A stretch of DNA of 48,517 nucleotides from Chitinophaga pinensis (GTDB taxonomy: Bacteria > Bacteroidota > Bacteroidia > UKL13-3). The position numbers were made by a program, and so were the translations under genes. The notes below the pieces were generated by a model, which saw nothing but the letters and a program-made list of their open reading frames with translations, was not told the DNA's origin and ran no database searches. Positions 41,018 to 48,517 of this stretch are shown here, piece by piece; within the stretch, counting starts at the first letter, position 1; the number at the start of each line of letters is the position of its first letter. Location of the stretch: contig CAMAWM010000015.1 of assembly GCA_945861965.1 (NCBI GenBank), positions 1 through 48,517 of the forward strand. Direction: 5' to 3'.

Positions 41018-43033
41018 TTATTTTATTGGTAAGGTAAAATTAAAACAGCTGCCTTTTTCTTCTTCACTTTCAGCCCAAATTTCACCTCCGTTTTTTTCTA
41101 TAAAATCTTTGCAAAGCAATAAGCCTAGCCCAGTACCTTTTTCGTTTGCCGTACCTTTGCTCGAGCTGTCTGCATGTTGTGTAAACATAATTTTTAATTT
41201 GTCTTTGCTAATTCCAATTCCATTGTCAATTACAGATACTTTCAAATAATTATTCTCTATTTCAGTACTGATACTAACCTCTCCGCCCGATTTTGTAAAT
41301 TTAATGGCATTAGAAATTAAGTTTCTTAAAACCAAATTAACCATATTTAAATCTGCATAAGCAAGCTCGTTTTCATCGGTTAAATTTAAAAGTGAAATGT
41401 TTTTCTGATTTGATGAAGAGTTCAGTATTTTGATATTTTGATCTACTAATTTATGGATTTTTATATGTTCAACTTTTAATGGAATTCCTTTGATTTGTGC
41501 AGATGCCCAAACCAATAAATTTTCTAACAAATCAATATTGTTTTGTACAGACATTGCTATCTCATTTGTTAAATCAGAATTGTTTTTTGCAACGTAATTT
41601 TTATTGCTAACCAAATCAAAATAAAGTTTCATCGTGGTCAGGTTGTTCCTTAAATCATGGCTTATGATTGAAAAAAATCTGTCTTTAACGTTGTTTAATC
41701 TTGTAAGTTCTTGCTTTTGTTGTTCAAGCAGTTTGTACTGCAGCGAAAGGTCTTTGCTTATCTGTTTATTTTTGTTGAAGTAATAATAAAACACTGCAAA
41801 CAATATCAACATCAAAACCGAAAGCGCAATTAAAAAGTTGCGGATTTGTATCTCGCGACCAAGCTCAATGTTTTTCAATTCGCTGTCTTTATTTAGCAAT
41901 GCAATTCGATTTTTTTGCTGTTCCGATTCATAAATCAATTGCAAATTACTCATCTGTTTTAGTATCGAATCGTTAAACATCGAGTCTTGAATTTGAGTAC
42001 TGAGATTATGAAAAGCCAGTGATTTATTTTTTTTATTTGTTACGTTATACAATTGCCTCAAACCTTCGTACGCTTCGTCCAATTCTATTCTTTGGCCAAT
42101 TTCTTTTGATATGTTTATAGCCTTTAAATAGTTTTTTTCTGCCTCTTCGTATTCGCCTAAATTCAATTGCGTTTTTGCAATTCCATTTAAATTTAAAACT
42201 ATCAACGGTTTTGCATTTGCATTGTTCGCAATTGTTAATGAGAGCTTGAAAAACTCTTTTGCTTGATGAAAATTGTTTTTCTCTGAATTAAGTTTTCCAA
42301 TTTTTTGAAGTGTAATTGCTTCGCCAGCTTTGTTTCCAATTTCACGATAAATTTTCAGTGCTTTATCAAAATATTTTTCTGCCTCAGCATGCTTTTTTTT
42401 GTTTAAAAAAATATTTCCGACATTCTCATAACTACTCAACAAACGAAATTTATCCTTGTTGTTTTCAAATATCGAAAGTGCTTTTAAATTGTATTCAATT
42501 GAACTCGAAAAATTATTTTGCCTTTCGTAAATTCCGGCAAGCGCCAAGTACGTATTCAATTTTCCATTACTATTTTTTTGCAATGTGTAAATTTGTAAAG
42601 CATCCAAATAGTTTTTGACTGCAGCAGGCAAACCTCCATTTGCAAACGAAATGTTTCCAATTGCATAAAGCACATCTGCTTTTTCAATCGATTTTTCTTC
42701 CGTATTTTTTAATGCTTTTGTATACGCATCTTTTGCCAACTGAAAATTTCCGATGACATAATAAATCGAACCTAAATTTTTATTGGTCGAGAAAATTATA
42801 CTTCGATCGTTTATTTTATCAGCTACTTCAGCAGCTTGTTTGTAATATTCTATTGCCTGCGAAGTATTGTTTTTTTTGTACGCAATTTGCGCTTCTTGTT
42901 GTAGCAAATTTGCTTTCCCTTTGTCTGTTTGACTTTGCAATGCATTTTGCAAACTGTCATTTTTTTGACCCATTGCAAAAATATTTGCAAACAACAAAAA
43001 GAAAATAATTTTTGATTTTAAAGTGTGCAACAC
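41018..43033 (-). CDS. TPR-containing sensor histidine kinase
   Basis: A 671-residue kinase with a signal peptide (1-22). A TPR solenoid (about 35-335, with paired helices such as LGSIYYVIGNFQLAKDAY) lies outside the cytoplasm. A coiled-coil linker, a transmembrane helix (about 400-420) and a HisKA domain follow, with RFFSIISHDLRNNL (His459). The HATPase has NAIKFTKSGG, DNGIGI and GTGLGLLLCKDFI. The start is GTG at 43033, directly after the regulator's TAA, with TTG as the next codon. The signal peptide requires this start. It is paired with the response regulator and belongs to the Bacteroidota-type TPR kinases, which may sense an envelope protein. Confidence 0.9.
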   Translation of the reverse strand: MLHTLKSKIIFFLLFANIFAMGQKNDSLQNALQSQTDKGKANLLQQEAQIAYKKNNTSQAIEYYKQAAEVADKINDRSIIFSTNKNLGSIYYVIGNFQLAKDAYTKALKNTEEKSIEKADVLYAIGNISFANGGLPAAVKNYLDALQIYTLQKNSNGKLNTYLALAGIYERQNNFSSSIEYNLKALSIFENNKDKFRLLSSYENVGNIFLNKKKHAEAEKYFDKALKIYREIGNKAGEAITLQKIGKLNSEKNNFHQAKEFFKLSLTIANNANAKPLIVLNLNGIAKTQLNLGEYEEAEKNYLKAINISKEIGQRIELDEAYEGLRQLYNVTNKKNKSLAFHNLSTQIQDSMFNDSILKQMSNLQLIYESEQQKNRIALLNKDSELKNIELGREIQIRNFLIALSVLMLILFAVFYYYFNKNKQISKDLSLQYKLLEQQKQELTRLNNVKDRFFSIISHDLRNNLTTMKLYFDLVSNKNYVAKNNSDLTNEIAMSVQNNIDLLENLLVWASAQIKGIPLKVEHIKIHKLVDQNIKILNSSSNQKNISLLNLTDENELAYADLNMVNLVLRNLISNAIKFTKSGGEVSISTEIENNYLKVSVIDNGIGISKDKLKIMFTQHADSSSKGTANEKGTGLGLLLCKDFIEKNGGEIWAESEEEKGSCFNFTLPIK

Positions 43034-43756
43034 TTAATTGCTTTTTAAATTGTCGACTAATTTAAACCCGCTTCCATGAATGTTTTTAAGTTCTAACGAA
43101 GGGTCGGGTTTTAATAGCTTACGAATCTTGTTTATGTAAACATCCAAGTTGCGAGCTGTGTAAAAATCATCGCGACCCCAAATATGCATTAATAAATTGC
43201 TTCGCGGAATAAGTTGATTTTTGTTTTTGATAAATATATTAAGAATTTCTCGTTCTGTATTGCTAATTTTTTTATCCTTACCATCAGGAAAAAGTATGGT
43301 GTTATTGGTAAAATCACAATTGATTTTACCAATAGTCAATGATTCAATAGGCGCAGAAAGTGTAGTATCGGGTTTTGTCTGGCTTCGTTTTAAAATTGCT
43401 TTAATTCTTGCTATTAATTCTTTTGTGCTAAACGGTTTTGTGATGTATTCATCACCGCCAATTTCAAAACCCATTAATTTGTCTTCTTCACCAGAATTTG
43501 CAGTTAAAAAAATGATGGGAATGTGTTGGTTTTTTTCTCTAATTTTTATGCCCATTTCAAAGCCATTCATTTTTGGCATATTCACATCCAATATACACAA
43601 GTCAAATCTTTCGTGTTGAAATGAATACCAACCTTCTTCGCCATCTTTACATAGTTTTACGTTAAAATCTGCAAATCTCAGATTTTCTTTAATTAAAAAA
43701 CCGAGACTACTTTCGTCCTCGGCTAAAAGAATATGAGTTTGTAATTTTTTTGTCAT
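43034..43756 (-). CDS. OmpR-family response regulator
   Basis: The 240-residue partner of the TPR kinase. The receiver domain has the acidic AEDES, Asp57 in CILDVNMPKMNGFEM, the conserved Lys in YITKPFS, and GGDEY. The winged helix (about 140-235) has ISNTEREILNIFIKNKNQ and the recognition helix ARNLDVYINKIRKLL, ending in HGSGFKLVDNL. The next gene starts at the base after its stop, so translation is probably coupled. A perfect -7 box lies at 43810-43817. Confidence 0.92.
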   Translation of the reverse strand: MTKKLQTHILLAEDESSLGFLIKENLRFADFNVKLCKDGEEGWYSFQHERFDLCILDVNMPKMNGFEMGIKIREKNQHIPIIFLTANSGEEDKLMGFEIGGDEYITKPFSTKELIARIKAILKRSQTKPDTTLSAPIESLTIGKINCDFTNNTILFPDGKDKKISNTEREILNIFIKNKNQLIPRSNLLMHIWGRDDFYTARNLDVYINKIRKLLKPDPSLELKNIHGSGFKLVDNLKSN

Positions 43757-43889: not shown

Positions 43890-46490
43890 TTAGCTTTGCT
43901 TAAATCCAATTCCACGTTTTTCAACGGCCGACTCATCAATTTTAAATTCTTCCAAATCTTCAAAAATTAATTCATGAATCATTTCTGATTTACGATTTGC
44001 AGCGTCTAATTTTGCAAGTCGTAAGTGTTGGTTTTTTATTGCTTCTTCTACTAATTTACGAATGCTGCGCGCATTTCCAAAAAATTTGTCGCGTGTTTTA
44101 TATAAAAATTCTGTGTATTTTTTTAAATGGTTTCCTGCCAATTCGTCAACAGAAATACCATTATTAAAAAACATTTTTATTGCAATTTCATACAATTGTT
44201 GTGCATCGCAATCTTCAAAATGCATTTCACGATCAAAACGACTTCGCAAACCCGGATTGCTTTCCAAAAAGCTTTTCATGTTGTCGGTATATCCAGCTAC
44301 AATTACAATAAATTCGCCACGGTAGTCTTCCATTTTTTTCAAAATGGTTTCAATCGCTTCTTTTCCAAAATCATTTTCTCCGCCTTCGCTTAGCGCATAC
44401 GCTTCGTCAATAAACAAAACTCCGCCCATTGCTTTGTTCAACACTTCGTTTGTTTTGATGGCTGTTTGTCCAACAAAACCACCAACCAACGCTTGCCTAT
44501 CGCACTCTACCAAATTACCTCGTTCCAAAATACCAAGTGCTTTATAAATTTGAGCTAATATTCGCGCAACGGTGGTTTTTCCTGTTCCCGGATTTCCAGT
44601 AAAAACTGAATGGAGCGAAAAAGATTGTCGGACATCTTTGCCAATTTCGCGATAGAATCGAACCAATTTTACCAATTCATCAATTTCATTTTTTACCGTA
44701 GCCAAGCCAATCAAATTGTGCAATGCATTCAATGCGCTTTTAAGCAGTTCTTCGTCTATTGGAATGTCTGCAATTGCTTTTTGTTTTACACCAAATATTT
44801 TTTCAATATCATTCGTTTCAATAGTGCTTAATTCTTCGTTGCTTAGTTCATTCGGGTTTTGTTTTTTCATTATTCGCAAACCCATATTCATTTTGCTTTC
44901 CTCAATCAAACTATTTACATAACGAGCATTTCCAAACATTTTATCTCTTTCGCGATAAGCATCTACAAGGCGCTTGTAAAAATATTCGCGCGATGCTTCG
45001 TTAAAAATAATTCCTCTTTTTTTTGCAGTGTAATCGGCAATTAAAATTAATTCTTGAGGCGTATAATCAGGATAATTATAATTCATCTGAAAACGGCTTC
45101 TCATTCCCGGATTGCTTTCCAAAAACCCTTCCATTTCTTCGGGATAACCAGCAACAATTATTGCTAAATCGCCATCTCCATCGCTCATTTCTTTCAATAA
45201 TATTTCAATTGCTTCTTTTCCAAAATCTTTCGAATCGTCATTTTTTCGTGCAAGCGAATAGGCTTCGTCAATAAATAAAATTCCGCCTTTTGCTTTCTTA
45301 ATTACTTCTTTTGTCTTAGGTGCAGTTTGCCCAATATATTCTGCAACTAAGTCGCTGCGGTCAACTTCCATCACATGGCCTTTGCTAAGCAATCCTAATT
45401 GTTTGTAAATTTTCCCAAGCATTTTTGCTACTGTTGTTTTCCCCGTTCCGGGATTGCCGGTGAATACCGAATGAAGATTTATTCTTTCTGAATCTTCAAA
45501 TCCTTTTTCTTTTCTAATTTTTAAAAAATTAAGATAGGTAGTGTATTCCTTTACTTTCTTTTTAATAGAATCTAAACCAATTAAACTGTCAAGCTCAATT
45601 AATACCTCATCAATATTTCCATCAACCGTTTTAGATTTTTCCGAACTTTTACTCTTCGATTTTGATTGAGTTGTAGCTTTGGGTTCGTCTTTAGTTTCAT
45701 TGCCCACTACAAAAGGAATATTGGCAATAATTGTATCCATAAAAATAACATCAACCGAATAATTATCGTTTCCCCAGGTTCCTTTCGAATCGCTTCCCCA
45801 ACCAATGCTACATTCAAAACCTTCTTCAGTTCCTTTAACAAAAAATAGCTTTTCGATTGAACCCTTTAATTGGCCTAAATGAGTTTTAAAATTATAATAA
45901 AACTCGCAATGCCAACTTTCTCGATCACGAACTAAATTCTCTGCCAAAAGTTCGAGCCAAACATAGCGCGTATCTTTGTTGTCAAAAGTTGTAAGATATT
46001 TTCTGTTTTTTTTCGGAACGTTTGCATCCGGCCCTTCGTAAGTTCTAAGTCCTGTAATATTGAAATAGGGGTTGTGGCTTTCGTTAACTATTCCCAAATC
46101 ATCTATGTAAAATACCTTTTCAATAATAAAAACATTGTCTATCCAAGCTTCCCATCTATAACTTCCTTTTTTCCAATAACTGCCTGGAGTTTTTACTCCC
46201 CATCCTTCGCGAACAAATACAATATTTTCATCTTTTCGTATAACTCTGTCTGCCGACAAATTGCACATTTCTGTTCCGTCATTTTGGTTTACACATTTTA
46301 GATTGATTTTTATATCCCAATCGTCTTCGTCAAATAATTTATTGAAAAAAGAAAGTTCGCAGTAAATAAATGTACAATCTGACTCGTCATAAACAAGGCG
46401 ATATTTTTTTTCATTGTTAGCAAGCCATTCGGTGCTACCAAAAATTTTCAAATCGCGAAATTTATAATTTACTGATTTCTCTTTAGGCAT
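43890..46490 (-). CDS. Double AAA+ ATPase (CbxX/CfqX type) with duplicated N-terminal beta domain
   Basis: An 866-residue, apparently cytosolic protein without signal or membrane segment. Residues about 38-130 and 173-262 look like two copies of the same strand-rich unit (paired hydrophobic and aromatic positions, each ending in a Trp/Gly turn and a V/I-rich strand). A Ser/Lys-rich linker (about 273-290) follows. Then come two CbxX-type AAA+ modules: Walker A GNPGTGKT at 345-352 and 632-639, Walker B LFIDEAY near 405-411 and 692-698, and the SRF arginine-finger region in both. Both Walker sites are intact, so both modules could hydrolyse ATP. The family includes rubisco activase CbbX, SpoVK and EccA, but this architecture is not tied to any of them. 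The partner is unknown and there is no rubisco or T7SS gene nearby. A TGTATTTG box with one mismatch lies 27 bases before the ATG. Confidence 0.88.
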   Translation of the reverse strand: MPKEKSVNYKFRDLKIFGSTEWLANNEKKYRLVYDESDCTFIYCELSFFNKLFDEDDWDIKINLKCVNQNDGTEMCNLSADRVIRKDENIVFVREGWGVKTPGSYWKKGSYRWEAWIDNVFIIEKVFYIDDLGIVNESHNPYFNITGLRTYEGPDANVPKKNRKYLTTFDNKDTRYVWLELLAENLVRDRESWHCEFYYNFKTHLGQLKGSIEKLFFVKGTEEGFECSIGWGSDSKGTWGNDNYSVDVIFMDTIIANIPFVVGNETKDEPKATTQSKSKSKSSEKSKTVDGNIDEVLIELDSLIGLDSIKKKVKEYTTYLNFLKIRKEKGFEDSERINLHSVFTGNPGTGKTTVAKMLGKIYKQLGLLSKGHVMEVDRSDLVAEYIGQTAPKTKEVIKKAKGGILFIDEAYSLARKNDDSKDFGKEAIEILLKEMSDGDGDLAIIVAGYPEEMEGFLESNPGMRSRFQMNYNYPDYTPQELILIADYTAKKRGIIFNEASREYFYKRLVDAYRERDKMFGNARYVNSLIEESKMNMGLRIMKKQNPNELSNEELSTIETNDIEKIFGVKQKAIADIPIDEELLKSALNALHNLIGLATVKNEIDELVKLVRFYREIGKDVRQSFSLHSVFTGNPGTGKTTVARILAQIYKALGILERGNLVECDRQALVGGFVGQTAIKTNEVLNKAMGGVLFIDEAYALSEGGENDFGKEAIETILKKMEDYRGEFIVIVAGYTDNMKSFLESNPGLRSRFDREMHFEDCDAQQLYEIAIKMFFNNGISVDELAGNHLKKYTEFLYKTRDKFFGNARSIRKLVEEAIKNQHLRLAKLDAANRKSEMIHELIFEDLEEFKIDESAVEKRGIGFKQS

Positions 46491-46755: not shown

Positions 46756-46848
46756 GGAGAGATGGGTGAGTGGCTGAAACCACCGGTTTGCTAAACCGAC
46801 ATACGCTGTTTAGGTGTATCGAGGGTTCGAATCCCTCTCTCTCCGCCA
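46756..46848 (+). tRNA. tRNA-Ser (GCT anticodon)
   Basis: A class II tRNA with a long variable arm. The acceptor stem is GGAGAGA (46756-46762) with TCTCTCC (46838-46844). The anticodon loop is TTGCTAA, giving anticodon GCT for AGC/AGT serine codons. The T arm is GAGGG-TTCGAAT-CCCTC (46821-46837). The discriminator G is followed by an encoded CCA at 46846-46848. It abuts tRNA-Pro with no spacer. Confidence 0.96.
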
Positions 46849-46922
46849 CGGGGTGTAGCGTAGCCTGGTATCGCGCCTGCTTTGGGAGCAGGAGGTCGTA
46901 GGTTCGAATCCTGCCACCCCGA
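46849..46922 (+). tRNA. tRNA-Pro (TGG anticodon)
   Basis: A cloverleaf with acceptor CGGGGTG (46849-46855) and CACCCCG (46915-46921), discriminator A, and anticodon loop TTTGGGA with anticodon TGG. The T loop TTCGAAT is present. The CCA end is not encoded (the gene ends ...CCCCGA then CACA), so CCA must be added after transcription. It starts at the base after tRNA-Ser CCA. Confidence 0.96.
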
Positions 46923-47007: not shown

Positions 47008-47667
47008 ATGAACTACCTTTCTCATTTTTTTATAGACCAGAAGTTAGGCAATCATTATTTCAATACAGCCTTACTATTGCCCGATTTGGCAAGATTAATC
47101 GTTCATGATTTTTCAAAACCATTCAATGATTTTTCAACGGATGAAAAAGAATTGTACTGCGGATGTTTGGCTCATTATGCTGCCGATAGAAAATTTCATG
47201 ATTCCAATTTTTTCAAACTGCATTTCGAATTAATAAATCAAAAAATAAACGCCTCTAACTTTGGAAATGAAGTAAATCGCAAATTTTTTTTGGCACACAT
47301 TCTTTTTGAAATGTTGTTGGACAGAATTATTGTAAAACATCAAATTGAGGTTAGCGAGAATTTTTATTCATCGTTGAATAAAATAGATTGCAATACACTA
47401 AAAGCTTTTGTAATGCGTTATTCAAACGCAGAAGCTGATGGTTTTATCAATTCATTTAATCAATTTAGAAAAGTTCAGTATTTATTTAGATATGCCAACG
47501 ACACTGAATTTGTTTACTCCATTAGTCGTGTTATGAGAAATGTGACAAAAGTTGAACTAGATTGGAGTAATAAATTTATTTTATTGCGCCTAATTAATGA
47601 AATAGAAAATGAACTATTTAGTAATGTGCAAGAAGTTTTGTTAAATTTGAAATCACTATTTAAATGA
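47008..47667 (+). CDS. AcpH-like (ACP phosphodiesterase-type) hypothetical protein
   Basis: A 219-residue helical protein. The N-terminus MNYLSHFFID with GN and PDLAR, the CGCLAHYAADRKFHDS region and the helix RKFFLAHILFEMLLDRII resemble the bacterial ACP phosphodiesterase (AcpH) family, which removes the phosphopantetheine arm from acyl carrier protein. Histidines and aspartates sit where that HD-like family has metal ligands. The overall similarity is weak by eye, so the function is provisional. Its TGA at 47665-47667 overlaps the ATG of the next gene (47664), an ATGA junction that implies translational coupling to the PorV-family protein. Confidence 0.55.
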   Translation: MNYLSHFFIDQKLGNHYFNTALLLPDLARLIVHDFSKPFNDFSTDEKELYCGCLAHYAADRKFHDSNFFKLHFELINQKINASNFGNEVNRKFFLAHILFEMLLDRIIVKHQIEVSENFYSSLNKIDCNTLKAFVMRYSNAEADGFINSFNQFRKVQYLFRYANDTEFVYSISRVMRNVTKVELDWSNKFILLRLINEIENELFSNVQEVLLNLKSLFK

Positions 47668-48517
47668 AATTCATAAAACTTTTTTTATTGATTTTTTTAT
47701 TGAGCAACACAACATTTGCTCAATTAAAGTATAGCAATGAGTTTTTATCGCTTGGTGTTGGCGCACGTAGTTTAGGGCTTTCGGGAGCAGTAACAGCAAG
47801 TGTTGACGATGTGTCGGCAGGATATTGGAATCCAGCAGCATTAATAAAAACAATTGATAAACCACAACTAATTGGAATGCACAACGAGCAATTTGCAGGC
47901 ATCGTAAAACACGATTATGCAGCAATCTCGTTTGGATTAAACGATAAAAGCGCATTTGCATTTTCTGTTATTCGTGTTGGAGTTGATAATATTCCAAATA
48001 CTTTGTTTTTAGTAAACAGCAGCGGACAAATTGATTATTCGAAAATCACATCTTTTTCAGCCGTTGATTATGCATTTATTGGAAGTTACGCCACCAAAAC
48101 AAAAATTGAAGGACTAAGTATTGGAGTAAATGTAAAAGTCATTCGCAGAGTAATTGGAACTTTTGCTGACGCATGGGGTTTTGGTGCGGATGCAGCAGTT
48201 TTATACCAAAAAAACAAATGGAATTTAGGCTTTGTTTTGCGCGATGTTACATCCACTTTCAATGCTTGGAATTATACATTTAGTCAAGCCGAAAAAGAAA
48301 AATTACTTGCAACAGGAAATGCATTGCCGCAAAATAATTTAGAGCTTACATTACCAAAAGCAACTTTTGGGGCTGCTAACAAACAAACTTTTTTTGAAGA
48401 GAAATTTTCGATTTTATCTACAGTTGATTTAGATATCAATACCGATGGACAAAGAAATACATTAATAAGCAGCAGTTTTTTTAATATTGATCCTCGTTTG
48501 GGTTTAGAGTTTGGATA
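47664..48517 (+). CDS. PorV/PorQ-family outer-membrane protein (3' partial)
   Basis: The frame runs to the right edge, so about 284 residues are visible and the C-terminus is missing. A signal peptide (residues 1-20, ending in TTFAQ) is followed by the family-typical start YSNEFLSLGVGARSLGLSGA, then DDVSAGYWNPAAL and MHNEQFAGIVKHDYAAI. These are features of the PorV/PorQ (UPF0164) barrel family linked to T9SS. LGVGARxLGMSG-type starts are found in PorV, PorQ and related paralogs, and this copy is not adjacent to porU, so it is not assigned to PorV itself. Beta strands such as SIGVNVKVI continue to the edge. It is coupled to the AcpH-like gene upstream. Confidence 0.82.
   Translation, partial: MKFIKLFLLIFLLSNTTFAQLKYSNEFLSLGVGARSLGLSGAVTASVDDVSAGYWNPAALIKTIDKPQLIGMHNEQFAGIVKHDYAAISFGLNDKSAFAFSVIRVGVDNIPNTLFLVNSSGQIDYSKITSFSAVDYAFIGSYATKTKIEGLSIGVNVKVIRRVIGTFADAWGFGADAAVLYQKNKWNLGFVLRDVTSTFNAWNYTFSQAEKEKLLATGNALPQNNLELTLPKATFGAANKQTFFEEKFSILSTVDLDINTDGQRNTLISSSFFNIDPRLGLEFG

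Follow-up and report, generated by a model that had tools for sequence, protein, structure and literature searches.

The open reading frame at positions 43890-46490 on the minus strand of the window, i.e. the 48,517-nucleotide stretch of Chitinophaga pinensis DNA analysed here, probably encodes a cytosolic double-ring AAA+ remodelling chaperone, in which a pair of N-terminal beta-sandwiches would act as the receptor that catches one dedicated client or adaptor. On sequence signatures its ATPase part belongs to the SpoVK-CbbX-EccA clade of classical AAA proteins, and the sandwich pair represents undescribed N-terminal domains on this known-clade ATPase. The protein itself is apparently undescribed in the literature searched, the coverage of which was partial. 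The source genome (2.1 Mb, 61 contigs) contains one copy of the gene, with other matches being weak only (E 7e-6 and 2.4e-5); a search of a plasmid collection gave no match, and no signal peptide is apparent by eye on the 866-aa sequence. The parts of the gene, and two divergent tRNA genes which lie outside the machine, are as follows:

43890..46490, minus strand: whole ORF, 866 aa, with an ATG start and the stop codon at 43890-43892
46095..46466, minus strand: beta-sandwich unit 1, residues 9-132 (alignment, repeat comparison, model, unit profile)
46398..46436, minus strand: segment S19-R31 of unit 1, STEWLANNEKKYR (37-sequence alignment)
45699..46067, minus strand: beta-sandwich unit 2, residues 142-264 (alignment, repeat comparison, model, unit profile)
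45606..45698, minus strand: linker, residues 265-295, rich in Lys, Ser and Glu (pLDDT < 50 at 272-290)
44793..45599, minus strand: AAA+ module D1, residues 298-566 (Pfam, motif alignment), with Walker A 345-352, pore-loop aromatic Y385, Walker B 405-409, sensor 1 GY 448-449, R466 and sensor 2 R523
43956..44729, minus strand: AAA+ module D2, residues 588-845 (Pfam, motif alignment), with Walker A 632-639, pore-loop aromatic F672, Walker B 692-696, sensor 1 GY 733-734, R751 and sensor 2 R808
43902..43910, minus strand: conserved C-terminal tail motif I861-G862-F863 (alignments; low confidence in the monomer model)
46756..46845, plus strand: divergent tRNA gene, tRNA-Ser GCT in relatives (synteny)
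46849..46922, plus strand: divergent tRNA gene, tRNA-Pro TGG in relatives (synteny)

The N-terminal beta-sandwich pair

The first-pass annotation of this DNA had described a duplicated beta unit, with residues 38-130 matching residues 173-262 by eye. Profile-profile comparison recovers the same register: with a 37-sequence alignment of residues 1-266 divided into halves 8-138 and 139-265, hhalign pairs residues 12-130 with residues 146-263 over 117 columns at 18% identity (probability 94.9%, E 4.1e-8, score 49.6), the real unit thus starting about 26 residues earlier than noted. One hundred column-shuffled controls reached scores of at most 23.9 and probabilities of at most 12.8, and a reversed control gave a probability of 1.0. 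As single sequences the two units are marginally similar, with a BLASTP E-value of only 0.002, which makes the by-eye call of a repeat a good one. AlphaFold2 modelled the N-terminal region as two beta-sandwiches (strands within 9-130 and 143-262, mean pLDDT 91.7, pTM 0.84), and not as one non-repeating domain. Comparison of Pfam with the 37-member N-domain alignment yielded scattered matches in at most 3 members each (best E 0.013) and no convincing family, and no PDB sequence matched the N-domain profile at E<=10. Segment S19-R31 of unit 1 is mostly invariant in the 37 sequences, and no conserved counterpart of it is present in unit 2 in the same alignment.

The domain family DUF3859 (PF12975), a candidate family for the sandwich unit, is absent from the Pfam matches of the 37 N-domain members and has no match in the source genome at E<=1. 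It matches one secreted relative weakly (18.2 bits, cut-off 24). The sole DUF3859 member above cut-off gives no alignment to the unit profile (prob 0.15), and two sub-threshold DUF3859 hits, at loci L179 and L180, match that profile at 13-17 bits.

In structural comparisons with VIA-align, model residues 5-132 and 139-265 superpose on the Wzt carbohydrate-binding domains 8dl0_C (Z 9.7) and 8dne_C (Z 10.4), respectively, and each half alone also aligns with GH2 sandwich domains (Z ~10). These matches invite another reading, that of a ligand sensor in which the sandwiches would bind a sugar, a nucleotide-sugar or an envelope precursor and so set the activity of the ATPase, with no protein client being caught. 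Such a glycan- or surface-binding module would be in keeping with proteins of other classes that have two units and, apparently, a signal peptide, and the arrangement would be analogous to CbbX, which is regulated by RuBP. The sandwich fold is of a common, generic type, however, and likeness of fold says little about function. Among PDB entries, Foldseek places the biofilm protein RbmA, itself a tandem-domain protein, first for the pair (E 1.6e-8), followed by unrelated Ig-like domains, and a viral fold library returned generic sandwich matches only. No binding residue was identified, and we regard a ligand sensor as rather unlikely.

AAA+ modules and clade membership

The presence of two complete CbxX-type AAA+ domains, also claimed in the first-pass annotation, holds: Pfam detects AAA twice and AAA_lid_6 twice, and the motifs are intact. 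AAA_lid_6 is associated with the SpoVK-CbbX-EccA clade. Walker A and B, the GY of sensor 1 and the sensor-2 arginine are kept in both D1 and D2 in 36/36 sequences, including G448-Y449 and G733-Y734, the GY signature of the clade, and R523 and R808 at sensor 2; the single exception among these motifs is one P-to-A change in the Walker A of D2. The arginine finger is conserved in both modules of the 36 sequences. The pore-loop position is Tyr or Phe in 36/36 sequences in D1 and in 33/36 in D2, with His in the other 3/36. Residues N460 and N745 are invariant and are followed by a variable residue at +4 (K/R in D1, K/R/S/H in D2) and an invariant Arg at +6. In the model, a bihelical hairpin, which like the sensor-2 arginine is a trait of the clade, precedes Walker A in both modules (helices 293-301/307-328 ahead of D1 and 580-591/597-616 ahead of D2). 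The two modules of the 866-aa protein are 46.6% identical to each other. According to the accessible part of PMC10659427, a tyrosine in sensor 1, within a GY signature, is a criterion of the SpoVK-CbbX-EccA clade.

The best NCBIfam profiles are those of SpoVK (538.7 bits), CbbX (463.5 bits) and EccA (436.5 bits), with the first two scores above the curated cut-offs and the third below (436.5 vs 466.65); the SpoVK label is not to be taken literally, because each of these scores sums two domain hits in one protein. By sequence, the closest solved structures are CbbX (1.7e-57) and EccA1 (3.1e-47). Foldseek with the full-length model also ranked CbbX first, and then the double-ring ATPases Drg1, ClpC, Rix7 and Cdc48/p97; at a pTM of 0.39, this model does not resolve how the N-domains and the rings are placed relative to each other.

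Domain architectures across the phylum and the C-terminal tail

A profile of the sandwich unit (16 rows and 122 positions, including the units of the window protein itself) was positive in 32/296 phylum genomes. Architectures were counted over loci L059-L115 and L137-L176, and the counts are not independent because near relatives are included. Two units followed by two AAA modules were found in 76 full ORFs, and one unit followed by three AAA modules in 8 ORFs. The latter carry a helical, TPR-like front, which in the one protein tested gave weak TPR profile matches below cut-offs. Rarer forms combine one unit with two AAA modules (1 ORF), two units with one AAA module (3 ORFs) or two units with none (3 ORFs), and six more ORFs run off a locus end. 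Among the ORFs lacking AAA modules, two have an apparent signal peptide by eye and the third (L156:8765-9868, 368 aa) occurs in a genome that also carries the full-length gene.

Single-unit relatives (L137-L145) have three CbxX AAA modules each, or two in the shorter ORF of L143. In one of the three-AAA proteins (L137:7332-11174), modules 2 and 3 lie on very long branches and are perhaps degenerate. Proteins with two units, an apparent signal peptide and no ATPase (L122:1429-2265, L123:1429-2265 and L127:862-2883 on the minus strand) are possibly extracytoplasmic users of the sandwich fold.

In a tree of 61 AAA domains rooted on one CbbX, all 18 D1 modules group together (support 0.98), all 18 D2 modules group with the three AAA modules that stand alone in their proteins (at a support of just 0.5), and D2 joins the middle AAA module of the three-AAA proteins (0.97). 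On this grouping the tandem is ancient, and loss of D1 is the most likely origin of the one-AAA form.

A second feature follows the domain architecture. The tail motif, scored as [ILV]G[FY] anywhere in the final 25 residues, is present in 72/76 proteins with two units and two AAA modules and in 3/3 with two units and one AAA module, compared to 0/9 single-unit proteins (75/88 proteins overall) and a background of 43/1102 other ORFs in the same loci. I861 and G862 are invariant in a 36-sequence alignment (36/36), and F863 is kept in 35/36. The tail thus accompanies the paired units; as proteins of this form share a common descent, the association is not independent evidence of function. In the monomer model the tail is unstructured (pLDDT < 50 at residues 859-866), and intra-chain docking of this low-confidence segment on the sandwiches was not seen.

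A core gene at an ancestral locus

The N-domain was detected in 60/64 genomes of the family and in 44/45 good-quality ones. Every positive genome has one copy, which in one case is split across two contig ends. The order-wide sample consists of the same 64 genomes and adds nothing to this count. In wider samples it was found in 66/295 class genomes and 21/395 phylum genomes, and its relatives are Bacteroidota. A search with the AAA half was positive in 78/295 class genomes at E<=1e-30. Every one of the 66 genomes that have the sandwich region is among them (the two lists were compared by hand); in the remaining 12, the CbxX modules belong to other proteins and are more distant (37-49% identity). 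The tRNA genes upstream are also shared. In 30/37 loci a divergent tRNA-Ser(GCT) is found no more than about 450 bases from the gene, the 37 being the loci out of 58 with sufficient upstream DNA for the scan, and most family members have the same tRNA-Pro/tRNA-Ser pair beside it. These data describe a core gene at a vertically kept, ancestral chromosomal locus.

This distribution bears on the suggestion of an anti-phage defence ATPase related to IetA, which would be in line with a match to the PADLOC IetA profiles at 2.7e-20. Generic AAA similarity seems to account for that match (60.2 bits for NCBIfam IteA vs a cut-off of 510), and a single-copy gene present in 44/45 good family genomes at a tRNA-flanked ancestral locus (30/37) is unlike a gene of a defence island. 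The defence reading is therefore rejected, as highly improbable, on both profile score and core-gene distribution.

Neighbouring genes and candidate partners

Recurrent neighbours, which the first-pass annotation had named as support for its reading of a double-ring motor served by paired substrate-binding units, were not found: no neighbour of the two-unit gene is widespread across families (53 loci). At 20/59 loci, genes for a TPR histidine kinase and a response regulator lie downstream, always co-directional, and in no more than 5 of these 20 does the regulator gene come immediately next. In the window the pair, with a regulator of the OmpR type, is at 41018-43756 on the minus strand, and 19 other loci have it as well. 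As a general partner it was rejected on these frequencies. At the other side of the gene, an ORF running off the window end (47664-48515, plus strand) has by eye the look of a PorV/PorQ-type outer-membrane protein, with no Pfam match at E<=0.01.

A different possibility is raised by two sets of membrane-associated neighbours, namely that of an envelope-assembly chaperone at the inner membrane, which would work with a membrane partner and have an exporter or an envelope enzyme as its client. A hydrophobic protein of 115 aa is encoded in 9/62 family genomes (8 clear matches at E < 1e-23 and one weak further match at E 1.4e-4), and in the 8 clear cases its gene directly follows that of the chaperone. 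In 4/9 single-unit loci (L140-L143) the gene is followed, in the same direction, by one for an ABC ATPase and one for a membrane protein of some 565 aa. The available part of PMC10659427 offers precedents within the clade, with MurG as the client of SpoVK and a link between EccA1 and the production of mycolic acid. Against this, the small protein is missing from the genome of the window and from 53/62 family genomes, for which reason it was rejected as partner, and the ABC pair is absent from 5/9 single-unit loci and was not seen beside two-unit proteins. An envelope chaperone of this kind is accordingly doubtful, and we consider it quite improbable. As to the loci themselves, the small proteins (114-118 aa, e.g. 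L059:10625-10969, L060:10634-10984 and L064:10634-10987) have three hydrophobic stretches, and groEL lies upstream in three single-unit loci (L137, L140 and L143).

Rubisco and type VII secretion substrates, the clients of other clade members, were likewise rejected. The first-pass annotation had seen genes for neither in the window, and this absence extends to the family: RuBisCO_large has no match in the source genome and is present in 1/62 family genomes, and WXG100 is found in 0/62. Altogether, this has the appearance of a core gene that stands by itself and does not belong to a gene system.

Comparison with known systems

As described in the accessible part of PMC10659427, SpoVK, CbbX and EccA form one clade of dedicated chaperones, their varied N-terminal domains likely recruit substrates, and no peptidase fusions were found in the clade. 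CbbX, the red-type Rubisco activase (PDB 3zuh, 3syk and 3syl), is the best solved relative by both sequence and fold; it is of the same AAA+ type and shares the pore-loop aromatic residue, but it has one AAA module and no sandwich pair, and its client Rubisco is missing from 61/62 family genomes. The part of PMC5437159 available describes CbbX as encoded in an operon with Rubisco in proteobacteria, reports that replacement of its Tyr114, the counterpart of the pore-loop aromatic residue, by Ala abolishes activase function with ATPase activity being retained, and proposes a threading model for the red-type activase. SpoVK, the MurG chaperone of sporulation, is of the same clade and provides the top profile for the window protein (NCBIfam TIGR02881). 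Its short N-domain of three strands and a helix, and its restriction to sporulating Firmicutes (PMC10659427, accessible part), differ from the two sandwiches and the Bacteroidota relatives found here. EccA of type VII secretion (PDB 9lur), also of this clade, has a TPR front which the TPR-like-[beta]-AAA-AAA-AAA relatives resemble; the window protein, in contrast, scores under the EccA cut-off, its residues 1-265 are beta with no TPR profile match, and its family lacks WXG100 (0/62). The double-ring classical AAA proteins Cdc48/p97, Rix7 and Drg1 likewise carry N-terminal domains ahead of a D1-D2 tandem, but belong to another AAA group (CDC48 profile 41.7 bits vs a cut-off of 802.65) and have other N-domains.

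Proposed mechanism

The reading as a double-ring remodelling chaperone remains the most economical one. What the first-pass annotation proposed in this respect stands as far as the domains are concerned, which are real, and is not backed by recurrent neighbours; substrate binding is a putative role of the pair. In support, an AAA match accompanies the sandwich region in 66/66 genomes of the class sample. The D1 and D2 modules of six subunits would form two stacked rings, with the two N-terminal beta-sandwiches on the entry side serving as a receptor pair for one dedicated client or for an adaptor of it. At the expense of ATP, a terminus or loop of the client would then be pulled into the axial channel by the aromatic pore loops (Y385 in D1 and F672 in D2), presumably resulting in activation, disassembly or assembly of the client and not in its degradation. 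We infer the hexamer, the double ring and threading, as well as the receptor role of the sandwiches and a docking role of the flexible C-terminal IGF tail, which may engage an adjacent subunit or a partner.

One may speculate further, at a level at which we would sooner expect to be wrong, that the paired sandwich represents a new family of client receptors, defining a Bacteroidota-specific branch of dedicated unfoldases that is core to several lineages and has an envelope enzyme or exporter as client. The IGF tail would in that case be a built-in pseudo-substrate that docks either on the client or on the sandwiches of an adjacent subunit, which would account for the co-occurrence of tail and paired sandwiches.

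Implications

The 122-position profile of the sandwich unit provides a sequence handle for finding more members of this family and possible partners. Characterised members of the clade serve one narrow client each, i.e. Rubisco, MurG or type VII secretion substrates (PMC10659427, accessible part). A member that is core to a lineage, and in which a distinct receptor is joined to two or three AAA modules, speaks for an additional client in Bacteroidota, a candidate which an automatic SpoVK or CbbX label would hide.
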